Shown here: positions 48,735 through 60,018 of the stretch, piece after piece
Layout of the letters: each line of letters opens with the position of its first letter
Numbering within the stretch: position 1 is the stretch's first letter
Position numbers and translations under genes: made by a program
Assembly (NCBI RefSeq): GCF_015864945.1
Contig: NZ_JADYWF010000003.1
Location: 186,001 to 250,000, forward strand
Length of the DNA stretch: 64,000 bases
Direction: 5' to 3'
Origin: Salinibacterium sp. NG253
GTDB taxonomy: Bacteria; Actinomycetota; Actinomycetes; Actinomycetales; Microbacteriaceae
Notes under the pieces: generated by a model
Database searches by the model: none
Told to the model about the DNA's origin: nothing
Seen by the model: the letters and a program-made list of their open reading frames with translations, nothing else

Positions 48735-48735
<1 letters not shown>

Positions 48736-51227
48736 TGAAAATTCCCATGAGTTGGTTGCGGGAATTCGTTGAGATCCCGACAGATATCACCCACGAACAG
48801 GTTCACGCTGCGCTCGTGAAGGTTGGCTTTGAAGAAGAAGACGTCCACGGTTTCGATATCTCTGGTCCGGTAGTGGTTGGCCAGGTTCTTGAGTTCGTTG
48901 GTGAGCCCCAATCCAACGGCAAAACCATTAACTGGTGCCAGGTTGACGTTGGCGAGGCTGAGCCACGCGGCATCGTGTGTGGCGCTCACAACTTCGTTGT
49001 CGGCGACAAGGTTGTTGTCACGCTTCCCGGCTCGGTTCTTCCCGGCCCGTTCCCGATCGCTGCGCGCAAGACTTACGGTCACGTCTCCGACGGAATGATC
49101 GCGTCTACTCGCGAACTTGGTCTCGGAGACGAGCACGACGGCATCCTCGTGCTGTCTACTCTTGGTCTTGACCCTGAGGTCGGCACGAGTGCAATCGAGT
49201 TGCTCGGGCTCGACGACTTCGCCGTTGAGATCAATGTCACGCCCGACCGTGGGTATGCCATGTCGTTGCGCGGCGTTGCGCGTGAATACGCTCTCTCGAC
49301 GGGCGCAAAGTTCACCGATCCTGCCGACGCTCCCACGATCACCGAGGCGAGCGGTTTCCCCGTGGTCATCGCTGACGACGCGCCCATTCGCGGTCGCGCC
49401 GGAGTGCGCGCCTTCGTCACGCGCGTCGTGCGGAACGTGGATGTCACCAAGCCAACGCCGTCGTGGATGATCACGCGCCTGACGCTCGCCGGCATCCGCT
49501 CGATCTCGCTCACGGTAGACATCACGAACTACGTCATGCTCGAACTCGGGCAGCCGATTCACGCCTATGACCTCGACCGAGTGTCGGGCGGATTGACGGT
49601 TCGTCGCGCGAAAGCGGGGGAGACGCTCACCACCCTCGACGACAAGTCGCGCACGCTCAACCCTGAAGACCTGCTCATCACCGACGAGTCCGGTCCCATC
49701 GGCTTGGCTGGTGTCATGGGTGGAGCAAGCACTGAAATCACGGATGCCTCGACCAACGTTCTGATCGAGGCAGCCAACTTCGAACCGATCTCGATCGCGC
49801 GCACTGCTCGCCGCCACAAGCTCGGCAGCGAAGCATCACGTCGTTTCGAGCGCGGAGTCGACCCGCTAGTGGCTTCTGCGGCGGCTGCGCGCGTCGTGGA
49901 GCTTCTCGTGGAGCTGGGCGGCGGCACCGTCGATACTCTCGGCAGCGACTTACTAGCCGAGCACACCCCAGATGCTGTTGATCTGCCCGAGGGCTATGCC
50001 GAAGGCCTTATCGGCGTTCATTACTCCGCCGATGAGATCACCGACTCTCTGCAGGCTATTGGCGCCGAGGTTACTGTGACTGACACTGGCTGGAGCGTGA
50101 CACCACCGAGCTGGCGTCCCGACCTCGGCGACAAGACCACGCTCGTTGAAGAAGTTGCCCGCATCGTGGGTTACGACCGTATTCCGGCTGTGCTCCCCGT
50201 CGCTCCTCCGGGCCGCGGGCTCACTCGCGCCCAGCGCCTGCGTCGCACTGTCTCTAACAGCCTCGCGGCATCCGGCCTCACCGAGGTCTTGGCCTACCCG
50301 TTCATCTCTCAGCACTCGAACGATCTTTTTGGTTCGCCTGAAGCTGGGGGAGCGACCACGATCAAACTCGCAAATGCCTTGGACCCGGATGCCGCAACCC
50401 TGCGTCGTTCGTTGCTACCGGGCCTCGCGGCGATCGCGCACCGCAATGTCTCTCGTGGACTCACGGACCTCGCTCTCTTCGAGGTCGGGACGGTGTTCCT
50501 GCCCGAAGCAGGCCACCGTTACGGAAGCACCTCGTTGCCGCTCGGCTATGAGTTGCCCAGTGACGCCGCTCTCGCCGAACTGCGTTCGAGCATCCCGGAA
50601 CAACCGTGGCACGTTGCCGCGCTGTTCCTCGGTGATGCCGTTACGCGCCAGCCGGGTCAGCAACCACTCTCTCGCGGGCTCGCGGATGCTCTCGCCACTG
50701 TTCAGCAGCTGGCGGCGACGCTGTCCGTCGACATCGACGTCGTGACGGGAACCCATCAGGCGATGCACCCTGGTCGCACCGCCGAGCTTCGCGTGGGCGA
50801 CCACACTGTCGGCTACGCCGGCGAGTTGCTGCCGGCCCTGGCGCTTGAACTCGATTTGCCGCGTGTTGTTGCGGTGCTTGAGCTCGACCTCACCGTGCTG
50901 ATCACGAGTGCTGCTGTAGATATCGCTGCGGCTCCCATCGTGTCGTACCCGGCCGCTACGCAAGACCTGTCTCTCGTAGTGCCGGTGGCTGTTCAGGCTG
51001 GCGAGTTGTTGGCCATCATCCGCGAGGGTGCAAGCGAACTCTTGGAGAACGTGCGGCTCGTCGATGACTACCGTGGCACCGGCATCCCGGAATTGCACAA
51101 GTCGCTGACTTTTGCGCTGAGGTTCCGCGCCAGTGACCGCACGCTCACGCAGGTAGAAGCGACCGACGCGAAGAACGCTGCGGTTGCCCTTGCTGGCGAA
51201 CGAGTGGGCGCTGAACTGCGCGAGTAA
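48735..51227 (+). CDS. pheT: Phenylalanine--tRNA ligase beta subunit
   Basis: An 830-residue subunit. Domain order: tRNA-binding EMAP-like domain (about 40-150), B3/B4 editing domain (about 215-390, TPDRGYAMSLRGVAREY before it), B5 domain (about 405-475), the degenerate catalytic core, and the C-terminal FDX-ACB anticodon-binding domain (about 735-830, ending SLTFALRFRASDRTLTQVE). It is full length for the family. A terminator follows 15 nt after the stop. Confidence 0.97.
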
Positions 51228-51242
51228 CCACTAATTGGTGCG

Positions 51243-51283
51243 AAAGCCGGTTGTCTCTCGCAGAGTGGCAACCGGCTTTTTGC
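51243..51283 (+). terminator. pheST terminator
   Basis: AAAGCCGGTTG (51243-51253) pairs with CAACCGGCTTT (51269-51279), followed by TT; the loop contains a small CTCT-CGC-AGAG hairpin. A classic intrinsic terminator separating pheST from the arginine operon. Confidence 0.88.
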
Positions 51284-51317
51284 GTTTGTCGATTAGCCTG
51301 CCGCGCGCTCTGGGCAC

Positions 51318-51323
51318 TACTCT
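51318..51323 (+). promoter_or_regulatory. Leaderless -10 of the argC leader ORF
   Basis: TACTCT ends 6 nt before the GTG at 51330, predicting +1 at that G. It is the same spacing as at about twenty genes in this window and is the only promoter-like signal between the pheT terminator and argC. Confidence 0.55.
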
Positions 51324-51329
51324 AGAAAT

Positions 51330-51422
51330 GTGACCGACTTCCGCACTTGCAGCCAGCGATTCTCGCTGAGCTTTGTGGTGCCGTCTTCGCCGGTTCTCCG
51401 CGGGGCTGACGAGCGACGATAG
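51330..51422 (+). CDS. Candidate arginine leader peptide (30 codons)
   Basis: From GTG at 51330 a frame of 30 codons runs to TAG at 51420-51422. Arg codons are at positions 5, 10, 24, 29 and 30. The last two are tandem CGA CGA directly before the stop, and the peptide ends GADERR. It lies 6 nt after a TACTCT -10 signal, so it would be translated from the very 5' end of the arg mRNA. Parts of the ORF take part in the leader helices listed separately. The predicted role is to sense charged tRNA-Arg by ribosome position. No protein family is involved, and translation is not proven. Confidence 0.5.
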   Translation: MTDFRTCSQRFSLSFVVPSSPVLRGADERR

Positions 51423-51506
51423 GCGGAGTTTCGCCACAACCCACGAGGTCGTGTGTGATTCGCCGCCGCAAGTGTTCTCGATTCCGAACCCACTGAAGGT
51501 AATTCC
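51344..51506 (+). promoter_or_regulatory. Foldable argC leader RNA with alternative helices
   Basis: P1: CACTTGC (51344-51350) with GCAAGTG (51468-51474) closes the domain. P2: CAGCGA-TTC-TCGCTG (51354-51368). P3: TTGTGG (51373-51378) with CCACAA (51434-51439). P4: CTCCGC (51396-51401) with GCGGAG (51423-51428), nested in P3. A short CACG-AGGT-CGTG hairpin (51442-51453) follows. AGTGTTC (51471-51477) can instead pair with GAAC and ACT (51486-51494) to make a hairpin touching the argC ribosome binding site GAAGG (51495-51499). That excludes P1. I did not recognise a known riboswitch or T-box. Confidence 0.5.
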
Positions 51507-52553
51507 ATGTCAATTTCGGTCGCTGTGGCCGGTGCCAGCGGTTATGCCGGTGGCGAGCTTCTTCGCCTGCTGTCCACCCATCCTGAGTTCGATGTCACGA
51601 CGGTGACTGCGTTTAGTAACGCCGGTCAGCGCCTCATCGATGTGCAACCGCATTTGCGGTCTCTCGCACACCTAGTTTTTCAGCCGACGGAGCCCGAAGT
51701 GCTCGCCGGTCACGATGTTGTTTTCTTTGCGTTGCCACACGGCAAGTCGGGAGCGCTAACGGCTGAGCTCAGCCCCGACACTCTCGTCGTTGACTGTGGT
51801 GCCGATCACCGCCTCACCAGCGAAGACGACTGGGCTGCCTTCTACGGCGGCGAGTTCTACGGTGCCTGGGACTATGGGATGCCCGAACTGCTGCACGCCG
51901 CCGGGGGCACGCAACGTCAAGTCCTCGCCGGTTCGAAGCGTATTGCGGTGCCCGGCTGCAACGTGACAGCTATCACGCTGGGGCTCGCTCCCGGCATCCG
52001 TTCCTCGTTGATCGAGTCAGAAGACATCGTGGCGGTGCTTGCGGTCGGCCCTTCGGGCGCGGGGAAGAGCCTGAAGGTTAACCTGCTCGCGAGCGAAATG
52101 ATGGGCTCTGCTTCGGCGTATGCCGTTGGCGGCACTCATCGTCACACTCCGGAGATCGCGCAGAATTTGAAAGTCGCTGGCGCTTCATCGGTGACGGTGT
52201 CGTTCACTCCCGTCCTCGTGCCCATGTCACGCGGCATTCTGGCGACCTCCACTGCGAAGCTCGCTGACGGGGTCACCGCAGCCCAAATTCGGGAAGCGTG
52301 GGAGACCGCGTATGCCGACGAGCCGTTCATTCACGTCTTACCTGAGGGGCAGTTCCCGCGCACCGCTGATACGTTGGGCGCCAACACCGCCCTGATCGGG
52401 CTTGCCGTTGACGAAGCTGCGCGTCGCGTGGTCGTCGTCAGCGCAATCGACAATCTTGTCAAGGGCACCGCAGGCGCCGCCATTCAATCGACAAATATTG
52501 CGTTAGGCCTTGAGGAAACCCTCGGTCTGGCGCTGGACGGAGTAGCACCATGA
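51507..52553 (+). CDS. argC: N-acetyl-gamma-glutamyl-phosphate reductase
   Basis: A 348-residue NADPH-dependent reductase, third step of arginine synthesis. The cofactor loop [17 protein letters not shown] opens the protein. The catalytic Cys is in [17 protein letters not shown] (about residue 151). LPHGKSG and [10 protein letters not shown] are further conserved elements. It is the first gene of argCJBDFGH. GAAGG lies 7 nt before the ATG. It overlaps argJ by 4 nt. Confidence 0.97.
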
Positions 52554-53701
52554 GTGTCACATCAGCCGCAGGATTCGAAGCAGCCGGGGTCGAAGCGGGG
52601 CTCAAGGCCAGTGGTGGTCTCGATGTCGCCCTCGTCGTCAACCGCGGCCCACGCTTCGATGCAGCCGCCGTATTCACGAGCAATCGTGCGCAGGCCCACC
52701 CCATCATCTGGTCCAAGCAGGTTATCGACGATGGCGTTGTCACAGCGATCGCCCTCAACTCGGGTGGAGCCAACTGCTTCACGGGCCCGCAGGGTTTTCA
52801 GGTAACGCACGCCACGGCAGAGCACGTTGCTGAAGCGCTCGGGTCATCGGCCGGCGACATCCTCGTCTGTTCGACCGGTCTTATTGGAGAACCGCTTCCG
52901 CAAGACAAGGTTCTCGCCGGGATGTCGGCAGCAATCGGAGCGCTCAGCACCGACGGGGGCCCCGATGCGTCGCTCGCCATCATGACCACCGACAGCAAGC
53001 CCAAAACTACTGTCGCGACCGGCACCGGCTACACCGTTGGCGGCATGGCCAAAGGGGCGGGGATGCTCGCGCCGGGCCTCGCGACAATGCTCGTGGTCAT
53101 CACCACTGACGCCGCTGTCGCTGCAGCCGACCTTGACGCGGCGCTGCGGGAAGCCACTCGTGTGAGTTTCGACCGTCTCGATTCGGACGGCTGCATGTCG
53201 ACCAACGACCAAGTAACGCTGATGGCGTCGGGCGCCTCAGGCGTAACTCCGGATGCAGCCGAGTTTGCCGCACTTGTCACGAGCGTCTGCAGCGATCTGG
53301 CCGAACAACTGCAGGGCGATGCTGAGGGCGCAAGCCACGACATCCGCATCGAAGTTGTGGGGGCAGTAAGCGAAGACGACGCTGTCGTAGTCGGCCGTTC
53401 GGTTGCTCGCAATAATCTCTTCAAGGCCGCGATCTTCGGCAACGATCCTAACTGGGGCCGCGTGCTTGCCGCGATCGGAACCACGGATGCTGCCTTTGAC
53501 CCCTATGCGGTCGATGTGTCGATGAATGGTGTGCGGGTCTGCCACGCGGGCGCCCCCGATCGTTCTCGCGACGAGGTGGATCTCACGGGCCGTGCTGTGC
53601 ACGTGCTGATCGATCTCGCGACGGGCGATGCCGAAGCGACCATCCTGACCAACGATCTCACGCACGATTACGTGCATGAGAACAGCGCGTACTCAAGCTG
53701 A
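52550..53701 (+). CDS. argJ: Glutamate N-acetyltransferase / amino-acid acetyltransferase
   Basis: A 383-residue enzyme that recycles the acetyl group from N-acetylornithine to glutamate and may also use acetyl-CoA. The self-cleavage site is Ala-Thr in [15 protein letters not shown] (Thr about residue 182), which becomes the nucleophile of the beta chain. [10 protein letters not shown] and [14 protein letters not shown] are substrate motifs. ATG overlaps the argC stop (ATGA), and its own stop overlaps argB (TGATG). Confidence 0.96.
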
Positions 53702-54615
53702 TGCCGGCTTTTACCCACGGCGCTGAACACGAGCAGGCCATGACGAAGGCGGGAGTGCTTATTGAGGCGCTTCCGTGGTTGAAGCGTTTTCGTAACCGCA
53801 TCATTGTGGTGAAGTTTGGCGGCAACGCCATGATCAACGACGAACTGAAGCGTGCGTTCGTGCAGGACATGGTTTATCTGCGTCTTGCTGGTGTGCGCCC
53901 CGTGATTGTTCACGGTGGCGGCCCCCAGATCACCAAGGAGCTCAAGATTCGCGGTATCGAATCGGAGTTCCGTGCTGGCTACCGTGTGACGACAGAAGAG
54001 TCGATCGACGTGGTGCGCGATGTGCTCACCGATCAGGTCGGCGCTGAGCTGGTTGATCTCATCAACGAGCACGGAGATCTTGCTAACGGCATTGCCGGGC
54101 ACGAACATTCGCTGTTTATCGGTGAACGCATGATCAAAGAGATCGAGGGCAAGCGAGTTGACCTCGGGTTGGTCGGTAATGTCACCGAGGTTGATCCTCA
54201 GCGAGTGCTTGACGTCTTAGCGAGCGACAACATCCCTGTGGTATCGACACTGGCCCAAGAAGCGGGAGAGATCGCTGAAGACGCCTCTGGCCTGCTCAAC
54301 GTCAACGCGGATTCTGCGGCGGCAGCGCTAGCTATTGCGCTCGAGGCGGCCAAGCTCGTCATCCTCACGGATGTTGCCGGTCTCTACAGCGACTGGCCCA
54401 ACCGTGAGTCGCTCGTCTCGATCATCAACACTGACGAACTGCGTGAGCTGCTGCCGAGTCTGGAATCGGGCATGATCCCGAAGATGACAGCCTGCCTTGA
54501 AGCGGTAGATGCTGGCGTTCCGAAGGCCGCGATCATCGACGGTCGAGCCCCGCACTCGATCCTGCTCGAAGTATTCACGCAAGATGGAATTGGCACCGAG
54601 GTGGTACCCGCATGA
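53701..54615 (+). CDS. argB: Acetylglutamate kinase
   Basis: A 304-residue amino-acid kinase, second step of the pathway. IIVVKFGGNAM binds phosphate, VIVHGGGPQI binds ATP/substrate, FRAGYRVTTEE contacts N-acetylglutamate, and LVILTDVAGLYSDW is the nucleotide loop. The N-terminal helix before residue 25 is of the type that makes the enzyme hexameric and sensitive to arginine feedback, an inference from length. The ATG overlaps the argJ stop by one base. Confidence 0.97.
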   Translation: MPAFTHGAEHEQAMTKAGVLIEALPWLKRFRNRIIVVKFGGNAMINDELKRAFVQDMVYLRLAGVRPVIVHGGGPQITKELKIRGIESEFRAGYRVTTEESIDVVRDVLTDQVGAELVDLINEHGDLANGIAGHEHSLFIGERMIKEIEGKRVDLGLVGNVTEVDPQRVLDVLASDNIPVVSTLAQEAGEIAEDASGLLNVNADSAAAALAIALEAAKLVILTDVAGLYSDWPNRESLVSIINTDELRELLPSLESGMIPKMTACLEAVDAGVPKAAIIDGRAPHSILLEVFTQDGIGTEVVPA

Positions 54616-55799
54616 CCTGGAAAGACGACTACGCCCACCGGATGATGAACACGTTCGGTGTACCGAAGGTGGAGTTCGTGCGGGGCGAAGGCTGCACGGT
54701 CTTCGATTCCGAGGGCAAGCGTTACCTCGACTTCTTGGCTGGCATTGCGGTCAATTCACTCGGCCATAACCACCCCGCGATTGTGGGCGCGCTCAGCCGC
54801 CAAGCCAACCTCCTGCACGTCTCGAACTTCTTCGCGACCGAACCGCAACTCGCGCTCGCGGCACGACTGCTGCGCATTTCGGGTGCCGGTGACGAGGGGC
54901 GCGTGTTCTTTGCGAACTCGGGCACTGAGGCAAACGAAGCTGCCGTCAAGCTCGCTCGCCTCACCGGGCGCCCGCGCATCCTGTCGTTGATGGATTCCTT
55001 CCATGGTCGGTCTATGGGGGCTCTCTCGATCACCGGCAAGGCATCGCTGCGCGAGCCTTTTGAGCCGTTGCTTCCCAACGTCGAGCACATTGATTCCACT
55101 ATCGAGGCCCTCGAAGCTGCGATTGGACCGGATGTCTCGGCCCTCATCGTCGAGCCGATCAAGGGAGAGGCTGGGGTGCACTCGTTGCCCGCCGGCTACC
55201 TCGAAGCGGCTCGTGAATTGACGACTCAGCACGGTGTGCTGCTCATCATTGACGAGATCCAGACCGGAGCCGGACGCACAGGAGACTGGTTTGGCTTCCA
55301 AGAGAGCGGAATCGTTCCTGACGCCATCACTATGGCTAAGGGAATGGGCGGGGGAGTGCCGATCGGTGCGCTCGTGACGTTCGGGAAGGCATCCTCGCTG
55401 ATGCATCCCGGTCAGCACGGCACTACTTTTGGTGGCAACCCACTCGTGTGTGCCGTTTCGGAAGCGGTCTTGGGTCAGATTGAGTCTGACGATCTCGTGG
55501 CGAATGCCGCTCTGCGCGGTGCCGAACTGCGCACCGCGCTGGCCCGCATCGATTCTGCGTTGATCGTTGAGCTTCGCGGTCGCGGACTCCTGATCGGCAT
55601 CGGACTTGCCGAGCCTGTCGCGCAAGAGATCGTGGCGGTTGCGCTTAAGCACGGGCTGATTATCAACGTCCCCAATTCGTCGACTGTTCGACTTGCTCCG
55701 CCCCTCATCATTGGCGATGCCGAAATCGCCGAGTTCATTGACACGTTCAGCACGGTGCTGGACGAAGTGACCAACACAGCATCTACGGAGGCATCATGA
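54612..55799 (+). CDS. argD: Acetylornithine aminotransferase
   Basis: A 395-residue class III PLP aminotransferase. FFANSGTEANEAAVKLAR, IIDEIQTGAGRTG (PLP Asp) and the Schiff-base Lys in TMAKGMGGGVPIGA (about residue 249) are present, with HGTTFGGNPLVCAV after it. In actinobacteria the enzyme may also act in lysine synthesis. The ATG overlaps the argB stop and its own stop overlaps argF, so the genes are tightly coupled. Confidence 0.97.
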   Translation: MTWKDDYAHRMMNTFGVPKVEFVRGEGCTVFDSEGKRYLDFLAGIAVNSLGHNHPAIVGALSRQANLLHVSNFFATEPQLALAARLLRISGAGDEGRVFFANSGTEANEAAVKLARLTGRPRILSLMDSFHGRSMGALSITGKASLREPFEPLLPNVEHIDSTIEALEAAIGPDVSALIVEPIKGEAGVHSLPAGYLEAARELTTQHGVLLIIDEIQTGAGRTGDWFGFQESGIVPDAITMAKGMGGGVPIGALVTFGKASSLMHPGQHGTTFGGNPLVCAVSEAVLGQIESDDLVANAALRGAELRTALARIDSALIVELRGRGLLIGIGLAEPVAQEIVAVALKHGLIINVPNSSTVRLAPPLIIGDAEIAEFIDTFSTVLDEVTNTASTEAS

Positions 55800-56722
55800 C
55801 CAGGCATTTTCTTCGCGACGATGACCTCAGCCCGGCCGAACAACTCGAGATTCTCGATCTCGCCGAAAAAGTAAAGGCCGATCGGTGGGGGCGCAAGCCG
55901 CTAGCGGGTCCGCAGACCGTTGCTGTGATCTTCGACAAGTCATCAACTCGCACTCGCGTCTCGTTCGCTGTCGGCATCGCAGACCTTGGCGGTTCGCCGC
56001 TCATCATCTCGACCGCCAACAGTCAGCTCGGCGGTAAGGAGACAGCCTCAGACACGGCTCGCGTTCTTGAACGCCAGGTGGCCGCCATTGTCTGGCGCAC
56101 CTACGGCCAGCAGGGTCTTATTGAGATGTCCCACGGAACCCAGGTTCCCGTGATCAACGCTCTCAGCGACGAGTTCCACCCGTGCCAGTTGCTCGCCGAC
56201 CTGCTCACGATTCGCGAGCACAAGGGCGAGCTCAAGGGCTTGACCGTCACGTTCCTCGGTGATGGTGCAGACAACATGGTGCACTCCTACCTGCTCGCTG
56301 GCGCAACCGCGGGAATGCACGTGCGCATCGCGTGCCCCGAAGATTACCTACCGCTGGCGGATGTCGTCGCTGACGCGGAGAAGATTGCGGCCTCCACGGG
56401 GGGTTCGATTTCAATTCTCACCGACGCGGCTGAAGCCGTGACGGGTGCGGATGTTGTTGTCACCGACACGTGGGTGTCGATGGGCAAAGAAGACGAGAAG
56501 GCCGCTCGCGTGGCTTCTCTTGGTGCCTACAAGGTCGACACTGCGCTGATGGCGCTCGCAAAGCCTGACGCTATCTTCTTGCACTGCTTGCCTGCTGACC
56601 GCGGGTATGAGGTTGAGGCCGACGTGATCGATGGCCCGCAGAGTGTCATCTGGGATGAGGCGGAAAACCGCCTGCACGCCCAGAAGGCTCTCATGATTTG
56701 GTTGCTCGAACAGGCTGCCTAG
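55796..56722 (+). CDS. argF: Ornithine carbamoyltransferase
   Basis: A 308-residue transcarbamylase making citrulline. The carbamoyl-phosphate motif is KSSTRTRVSF (about 44-53), HPCQLLADLLT and DGADNMVHSYLL follow, and the ornithine motif is FLHCLPADRGYEV. The ATG overlaps argD (ATGA). argR, which commonly comes next in actinobacteria, is absent; a hairpin and a new promoter signal occupy the 67-bp gap to argG. Confidence 0.97.
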   Translation: MTRHFLRDDDLSPAEQLEILDLAEKVKADRWGRKPLAGPQTVAVIFDKSSTRTRVSFAVGIADLGGSPLIISTANSQLGGKETASDTARVLERQVAAIVWRTYGQQGLIEMSHGTQVPVINALSDEFHPCQLLADLLTIREHKGELKGLTVTFLGDGADNMVHSYLLAGATAGMHVRIACPEDYLPLADVVADAEKIAASTGGSISILTDAAEAVTGADVVVTDTWVSMGKEDEKAARVASLGAYKVDTALMALAKPDAIFLHCLPADRGYEVEADVIDGPQSVIWDEAENRLHAQKALMIWLLEQAA

Positions 56723-56789: not shown

Positions 56790-59428
<2,639 letters not shown>

Positions 59429-59430
59429 AC

Positions 59431-60018
59431 GTGTTCGAACTGCTCAGCAGGCCGGCGACCGAGGTTGCGCCGCTCTTGCTGGGTGCTGTCGTGCGCGTCG
59501 GTGAGGTCGCGGTGCGGCTCACCGAGGTCGAGGCATACCTGGGCGAAGTCGATCCTGGTTCTCACGCGTTTCGCGGCCCCGGCAAACGTAACGCTGTGAT
59601 GTACGGCCCGCCCGGCCATCTTTACACCTATTTCACCTACGGCATGCACACGTGCGCGAATGTCGTGTGCATGCCTGAGGGCGTCGCCTCAGGAATCCTT
59701 TTACGTGCCGGCGAAGTGATCGAGGGGATGGATGTCGCGGCCGAACGTCGCGCAACATCCAAGAAACCGGCCGACCTCGCTATGGGGCCCGCCCGCCTCG
59801 CGGTTGCGCTGGGCATTCGTTTGGATGATGCCGGCACCAACCTAGAGTCGGGTCGCGTTCGTCTGGAACTGCCGCAGTCGCGGTCTCCGTTCAGCGTTGG
59901 TCCGCGCACGGGCGTCGCGGGTGCTGGCGGCACTGACAAGTATCCGTGGCGCTTCTGGATTCCGGGGGAGCCGAGCGTGTCCCCGTATCGCCCCGCAGTG
60001 AAGCACAAGCGCAGCTAG
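59431..60018 (+). CDS. mpg: DNA-3-methyladenine glycosylase (AAG/Mpg type)
   Basis: A 195-residue monofunctional alkyladenine DNA glycosylase that starts base-excision repair. VRLTEVEAYLGEVDPGSHAF contains the catalytic Glu, RNAVMYGPPGHLYTYFTYGMH the DNA-intercalating Tyr region (quoted in parts), and GPARLAVALGI and DKYPWRFWIPGEPSVSPYR the rest of the fold. The GTG start is 2 bp after argH, so it is expressed as the tail of the arg operon, an unrelated function riding on it. Its stop overlaps the next GTG (TAGTG). Confidence 0.94.
   Translation: MFELLSRPATEVAPLLLGAVVRVGEVAVRLTEVEAYLGEVDPGSHAFRGPGKRNAVMYGPPGHLYTYFTYGMHTCANVVCMPEGVASGILLRAGEVIEGMDVAAERRATSKKPADLAMGPARLAVALGIRLDDAGTNLESGRVRLELPQSRSPFSVGPRTGVAGAGGTDKYPWRFWIPGEPSVSPYRPAVKHKRS

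Follow-up and report, generated by a model that had tools for sequence, protein, structure and literature searches.

The arginine biosynthesis operon argCJBDFGH of Salinibacterium sp. NG253 (Microbacteriaceae) is preceded by a short Arg-rich open reading frame (ORF) and a stem-loop that together are, with good probability, a cis-acting, ribosome-mediated arginine attenuator, which probably stands in for the missing ArgR; the sign of its response and its output are what we infer. The conserved core, as read from the alignments, is simpler than the set of helices (P1-P4) originally predicted at this place, consisting of a CGA codon and one stem-loop that opens at GGCG (strands S2 and S3). Sequence lends good support to the trigger side of this proposal, but not to its output side. 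If correct, the proposal suggests a mode of controlling arginine synthesis without ArgR in much of a bacterial family, and CGA, 8 nt and a GGCG stem-loop are offered as its signature.

The window, that is, the whole stretch of 64,000 nucleotides analysed here, carries the element on its forward strand between two genes. Upstream lies pheT (48735-51227; NCBIfam TIGR00472, 617.7 bits against a cut-off of 402.65), followed by a hairpin with a T-run at 51244-51283 (fold z = -6.82, none of 200 shuffles as stable), whose stem has an internal bulge and which is absent from the list given by a simple terminator scan. This hairpin is the probable terminator of pheT, dividing two transcripts, and because it follows pheT the argC operon probably has a transcript of its own. 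Downstream, the seven arginine genes follow the leader in the order C-J-B-D-F-G-H according to NCBIfam models, also on the forward strand: argC (51507-52553; TIGR01850, 355.1 bits), argJ (52550-53701), argB (53701-54615), argD (54612-55799), argF (55796-56722), argG (56790-57989) and argH (57992-59428), with a DNA-3-methyladenine glycosylase gene at 59431-60018, 2 bases 3' of argH. The Shine-Dalgarno site of argC is GAAGG at 51495-51499, an AAGG-type site being found in most relatives. Reading TAAGGT as a -10 hexamer of argC was considered and dropped, because AAGG is kept where TAnnnT is not, the window included.

Between the hairpin and argC, the features originally described for the leader hold on the window sequence: TACTCT (51318-51323), a -10-like hexamer, stands 6 nt upstream of a GTG at 51330 that opens a 30-codon ORF (51330-51422) with five Arg codons, the final two being CGA CGA followed by TAG, and the encoded peptide is VTDFRTCSQRFSLSFVVPSSPVLRGADERR. 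The first of these two codons (51414-51416) is the proposed stall site, found at the same position in 71 of 71 leaders and in all 60 rows of the alignment described below; the second (51417-51419) has an Arg codon at the matching place in 25 of the 71. CGA is uncommon in the window, accounting for 12 of the 236 Arg codons of 11 window genes, in which the share of Arg ranges from 3.6 to 8.7%. The leader ORF itself is probably leaderless, that is, with no 5' untranslated region, and transcription would start at about 51330, a position for which the sole basis is the -10-like hexamer; a scan for the sigma-70 consensus returned no promoter in 51200-51520. An ATGTGA at 51328-51333, a start codon directly abutting a stop, overlaps the leader GTG, and it is also found in close relatives and in the genus genome G003. 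A search of 50800-52000 against Rfam (release 15) returned nothing at E values up to 1, and in nine relatives nothing reached the gathering score.

Conservation of a short ORF with terminal Arg codons, a key expectation of the original prediction, was found throughout the genus. A DNA search detected the region in 24 of 27 genus genomes, each with a leader that is rich in Arg, starts 6-7 nt 3' of a -10-like hexamer and ends in ERR-stop (23 sequences) or ARRS-stop (one), and the remaining three genomes (G004, G010 and G003) likewise carry the leader, whose peptide in G003 is VNDARDGFLGLTPSAALRRRGSDERR; a leader is thus present in 27 of 27. For the family, 150 argC upstream regions from 149 genomes were compared, these being the best argC matches among those listed, so that genera near the window are over-represented in them. 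A separate leader was found in 71 regions from 25 genera, the end of pheT takes its place in 19 (see below), and 60 others remain. The search rule had returned 75 loci, namely 69 leaders and six PheT tails, and visual inspection contributed two more leaders (L131 and L132); the GGCG was picked by hand at three loci of genus g18, one of g29 and three of g64. Within the 60 regions, 56 have no match to a covariance model of the core element, three (L115, L133 and L144) are cut by contig ends yet match it, and one (L211) has a weak match with no leader seen. A further 40 regions were selected through the covariance model; in 38 of them CGA formed part of the search pattern, L279 having no CGA at that distance and L296, being incomplete, having been left out.

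The geometry of these leaders suggests codon reading. An in-frame CGA lies 8 nt upstream of GGCG in 71 of 71 leaders from 25 genera, while the peptides differ widely among genera. Over 109 leaders, the codon preceding CGA encodes Arg 60 times and Glu 37 times, and the stop comes two codons after CGA in 69 and seven to ten codons after it in 40; this combination of a fixed codon and spacing with a variable peptide and stop indicates that a codon is read beside an RNA strand. TAnnnT occurs 6-9 nt 5' of the start in 109 of 109, a figure to be read with the fact that the rule itself required TAnnnT. The leaders contain 27.4% Arg, against 20.6% in shuffles that keep dinucleotides, and the -10-like hexamer at the start, the open frame and the Arg excess recur over 39 genera. 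An ORF with codons for the end product of the pathway precedes the operon in all 27 genus genomes and in 71 of the 150 argC regions. The leading edge of a ribosome lies some 12 nt beyond the codon in its A site and, with this footprint, the CGA is placed in 71 of 71 leaders such that a stalled ribosome would cover the adjoining helix strand. Arg codons are, however, scattered along the whole leader, and stalling at the earlier ones would leave S2 uncovered, which counts against reading the element as an attenuator.

Two other accounts of the ORF have to be weighed against this geometry. An arrest-peptide mechanism, in which free arginine would be sensed by way of the nascent Arg-rich peptide inside the ribosome and not through codons, is quite improbable: many leaders do have a polybasic stretch a few residues before CGA, but the peptides vary widely between genera, the stop position is bimodal and the CGA is fixed at the nucleotide level. 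The fungal-type arginine attenuator peptide, a conserved nascent peptide that causes arrest at the stop codon, finds no counterpart among these leaders, in which peptides and stops vary. That a chance ORF merely neighbours ordinary folding, with no regulation at all, is hardly credible; a fixed codon at a fixed spacing in every leader of 25 genera, and model matches restricted to argC, speak against it.

The second component of the core is the stem-loop that follows the leader. In the window, S2 (GGCGGAG, 51422-51428) and S3 (CGCCGCC, 51461-51467), both supported by alignment and fold, enclose an inner hairpin (51431-51458) whose sequence differs among genera, and in the minimum-free-energy fold of 51422-51468 positions 51422-51426 pair with 51463-51467 (z = -3.88, none of 200 shuffles as stable); the fold of the whole 51318-51530 gives z = -2.32, with 3 of 200 shuffles as stable. 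The strand GCGGAG (51423-51428), which had been pointed out right after the stop, is present and conserved along with the ORF. In the leaders compared, S3 mostly reads CGTCGCC or CGCCGCC. An alignment of 60 sequences was made from 50 of the 71 leaders, after removal of near-identical rows, and 10 genus rows; in it GGCG and the 3' strand have the strongest conservation per base and S2:S3 pairing amounts to 87.6%. Double-changed cells in S2:S3 number 15, where shuffles average 7.9 and reach this level in 3 of 500 cases; on two of five measures, how many pairs are double-changed and how many pair types occur, the alignment does not surpass its shuffles. When every column pair of 98 sequences was put to a tree-aware covariation test, none proved significant, in a core that barely varies; the S2:S3 pairs that do vary, two in number, take ranks 11 and 15 (E = 60 and 85). 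The RNA running from S2 up to the ribosome site, taken without choosing S3, folds more stably than its shuffles, with a mean z of -2.35 (101 distinct sequences), while the ORF just upstream of S2 has a mean of -0.44. The value of -3.61 obtained from S2 to S3 is biased by the choice of S3, and therefore -2.35 is the one relied on.

Given this conservation, the stem-loop might be functional alone, for instance as a protein or RNase site, with the ORF as a by-product of C- and G-rich sequence, and it would fit that GGCG and the 3' strand are the most conserved per base and that CGA could be kept as RNA. We regard this as very improbable, since the leader start with its -10-like hexamer, the open frame and the Arg excess in 39 genera would then go unexplained.

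From S3 to the ribosome site there are about 27 nt (25-32 nt in the middle 80%), a tail (51468-51494 in the window) that is C-rich and unstructured in the family, with 43.7% C and 18.7% G, compared with 34.0% C and 37.9% G at 40-12 nt upstream of argC in 48 element-free loci. A CTCGTCC-like motif recurs in this tail before the argC ribosome site, in the window and in relatives, with no partner found for it. Duplex searches gave no partner for S3 or the tail in the leader ORF, at the stall site or at the argC start (mean z between -0.01 and 0.45, against -2.22 for S2:S3 as control), so that pairings of S3 or the tail with the leader ORF or the argC start were discarded. Also discarded was S1:S4, in which GACGAG of the leader would pair with CTCGTC of the tail; it is paired in 60.6%, and a slide by +3 scores higher in covariation. 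Neither an intrinsic terminator nor a U-tract after S3 is listed in 51200-51520, which also disposed of a terminator 3' of S3 in the window. For the ribosome site of argC, the accessibility predicted across the 71 leaders is 0.497 in the free RNA and 0.519 with the stall site blocked, with no systematic change, and the idea that a stalled ribosome unmasks this site was dropped accordingly. The leader would act like an attenuator and yet, in the duplex searches, it shows no mutually exclusive RNA structures, nor does it show a terminator with a U-tract or a masked ribosome site as output.

These results bear directly on the original prediction, in which P1-P4 and a small hairpin beside the ribosome site (51471-51494) would exchange with the position of the ribosome and the chosen fold would expose argC translation or let transcription proceed. 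Such a two-structure switch finds some support among the 11 closest relatives, where P1 pairs 7/7 in nine and 6/7 in two and where the small hairpin also folds. However, the strands of P1 were found in only these 11 of 24 genus sequences and not in the other 13; the ORF strand of P4, reconstructed as CTCCGC (pairing with GCGGAG), reads CTGCGC in three of the 11; and the modelled accessibility of the ribosome site is constant over the 71 leaders. As far as the alignments go, P1 and P4 do not extend beyond the closest relatives. The small hairpin, a predicted fold in the clade of the window, is not supported as a general mechanism in a family whose tail is unstructured. The switch is therefore improbable. 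What does hold of that interpretation, which we consider partly supported, is its core: an Arg-codon leader before argC whose last Arg codons abut a strand that a stalled ribosome could cover.

The distribution of the element has to be seen together with that of ArgR, which, with its ARG boxes, governs this operon elsewhere, in other families. The absence of argR from its usual place had been noticed at the outset and extends to the whole genome: there is none between argF and argG and no match to PF02863 in the source genome. The C-terminal domain of ArgR was found in none of 398 Microbacteriaceae genomes, in contrast with 138 of 139 genomes from the order's other families; the one genome without it measures 0.8 Mb. 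The covariance model matches 182 of the 398 genomes, in 46 of 85 genera (a search with stricter filters, positions being known for those among the matches listed), once per genome save for one genome with two matches, and 40 of 40 regions fetched from its matches precede an argC-like start. Weak extra matches, one in G151 at E = 0.003 and one in G030 at E = 0.002, inside or beside unrelated-looking ORFs, were not retained as second copies, and the 139 genomes of other families gave one weak, chance-like match (E = 0.007). The element is not in every ArgR-less genome, 216 of the 398 family genomes having no model match and no ArgR either. At L160, L153, L175 and other element-free loci, in several genera, argC seems to be leaderless behind TAGATTT-type hexamers.

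How would the attenuator work? When charged tRNA-Arg is scarce, the ribosome would stall as CGA occupies the A site; its leading edge would then cover most of S2 and block the stem-loop, so that argCJBDFGH would be expressed; when arginine is ample, the ribosome would finish and depart, and the stem-loop would form and lower argC expression. A terminating ribosome also masks S2 briefly, and hence the stalled and finished states would differ mainly by duration. The output step is guesswork, because no competing structure, U-tract or accessibility change was found. Our first guess, with about an even chance of being right, is that transcription ends prematurely near the C-rich tail, perhaps with assistance from Rho; next would come altered ribosome loading or altered decay of the mRNA. 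With no visible terminator or competing fold, the output may differ from that of textbook attenuators.

The 19 loci lacking a separate leader (L118, L125, L129, L134, L139-L143, L145, L148, L164, L184, L200, L219, L221, L226, L229 and L248; genera g5, g36, g32 and one locus of g12) add a variant in which the end of pheT, upstream of argC, itself provides CGA-N5-GGCG. S3 and the C-rich tail follow the pheT stop in 19 of 19, the fold has a mean z of -2.70 (15 distinct sequences) and the covariance model, which was made from separate leaders, recovers all 19 with genome-wide E from 3e-11 to 6e-7. At all 19 of these loci, which come from four genera only and are not independent, the PheT RxGA motif has CGA as its Arg codon; the same codon is used in 6 of 24 separate-leader genomes and in 5 of 37 with neither type (pheT was readable in 94 of the 150 loci, the RxGA motif being missing in 14). 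In genera g77 and g84, the leaders end like PheT and in the same frame (GERLRATLRD and GERLGASFPG, compared with GERFGATLRD), a resemblance that suggests a common descent of leader and pheT tail. An evenly balanced proposition is, then, that a family-wide single-hairpin arginine attenuator replaces ArgR and that at loci of four genera the pheT end (GAG CGA TTC GGG GCG) serves as leader and stall site, held by a constraint on synonymous codons, with leader and pheT tail possibly sharing descent. If true, the end of an essential protein gene would double as a metabolic sensor.

Attenuators of amino-acid operons of the trp, his and leu type likewise have a short ORF with end-product codons before the first biosynthetic gene, and those codons likewise abut a strand of an RNA helix; unlike them, the argC leader concerns arginine, is probably leaderless and has one stem-loop, with no U-tract or competing structure found. 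No published arginine-biosynthesis leader peptide in actinobacteria was found in the open-licence literature, in agreement with the original prediction, which knew of none. The accessible part of Seliverstov et al. (2005, PMC1262725) gives candidate actinobacterial leaders for trp, ilvB and cys and reports no conserved RNA structure upstream of arginine operons in actinobacteria. It also describes the LEU element of leuA, an actinobacterial leader for which descent from a gene remnant has been proposed, as is suspected here for the pheT tail, but which concerns leucine and involves a pseudoknot. In Pseudomonas, the carAB leader encodes a leader peptide with possible attenuation at an arginine-related operon; according to the accessible part of that report, however, attenuation is tied to pyrimidines and arginine control to transcription (PMC4997734). 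Another comparable case is orf34 in the speF leader of Salmonella, where, in the accessible part of the report, consecutive Arg codons sense the arginine supply via RNA structure with the involvement of Rho (PMC6386406). The likeness is one of description, orf34 belonging to an enterobacterium, lying in a long leader and controlling polyamine synthesis; Rho, as at orf34, or mRNA decay are candidate outputs for the argC leader.
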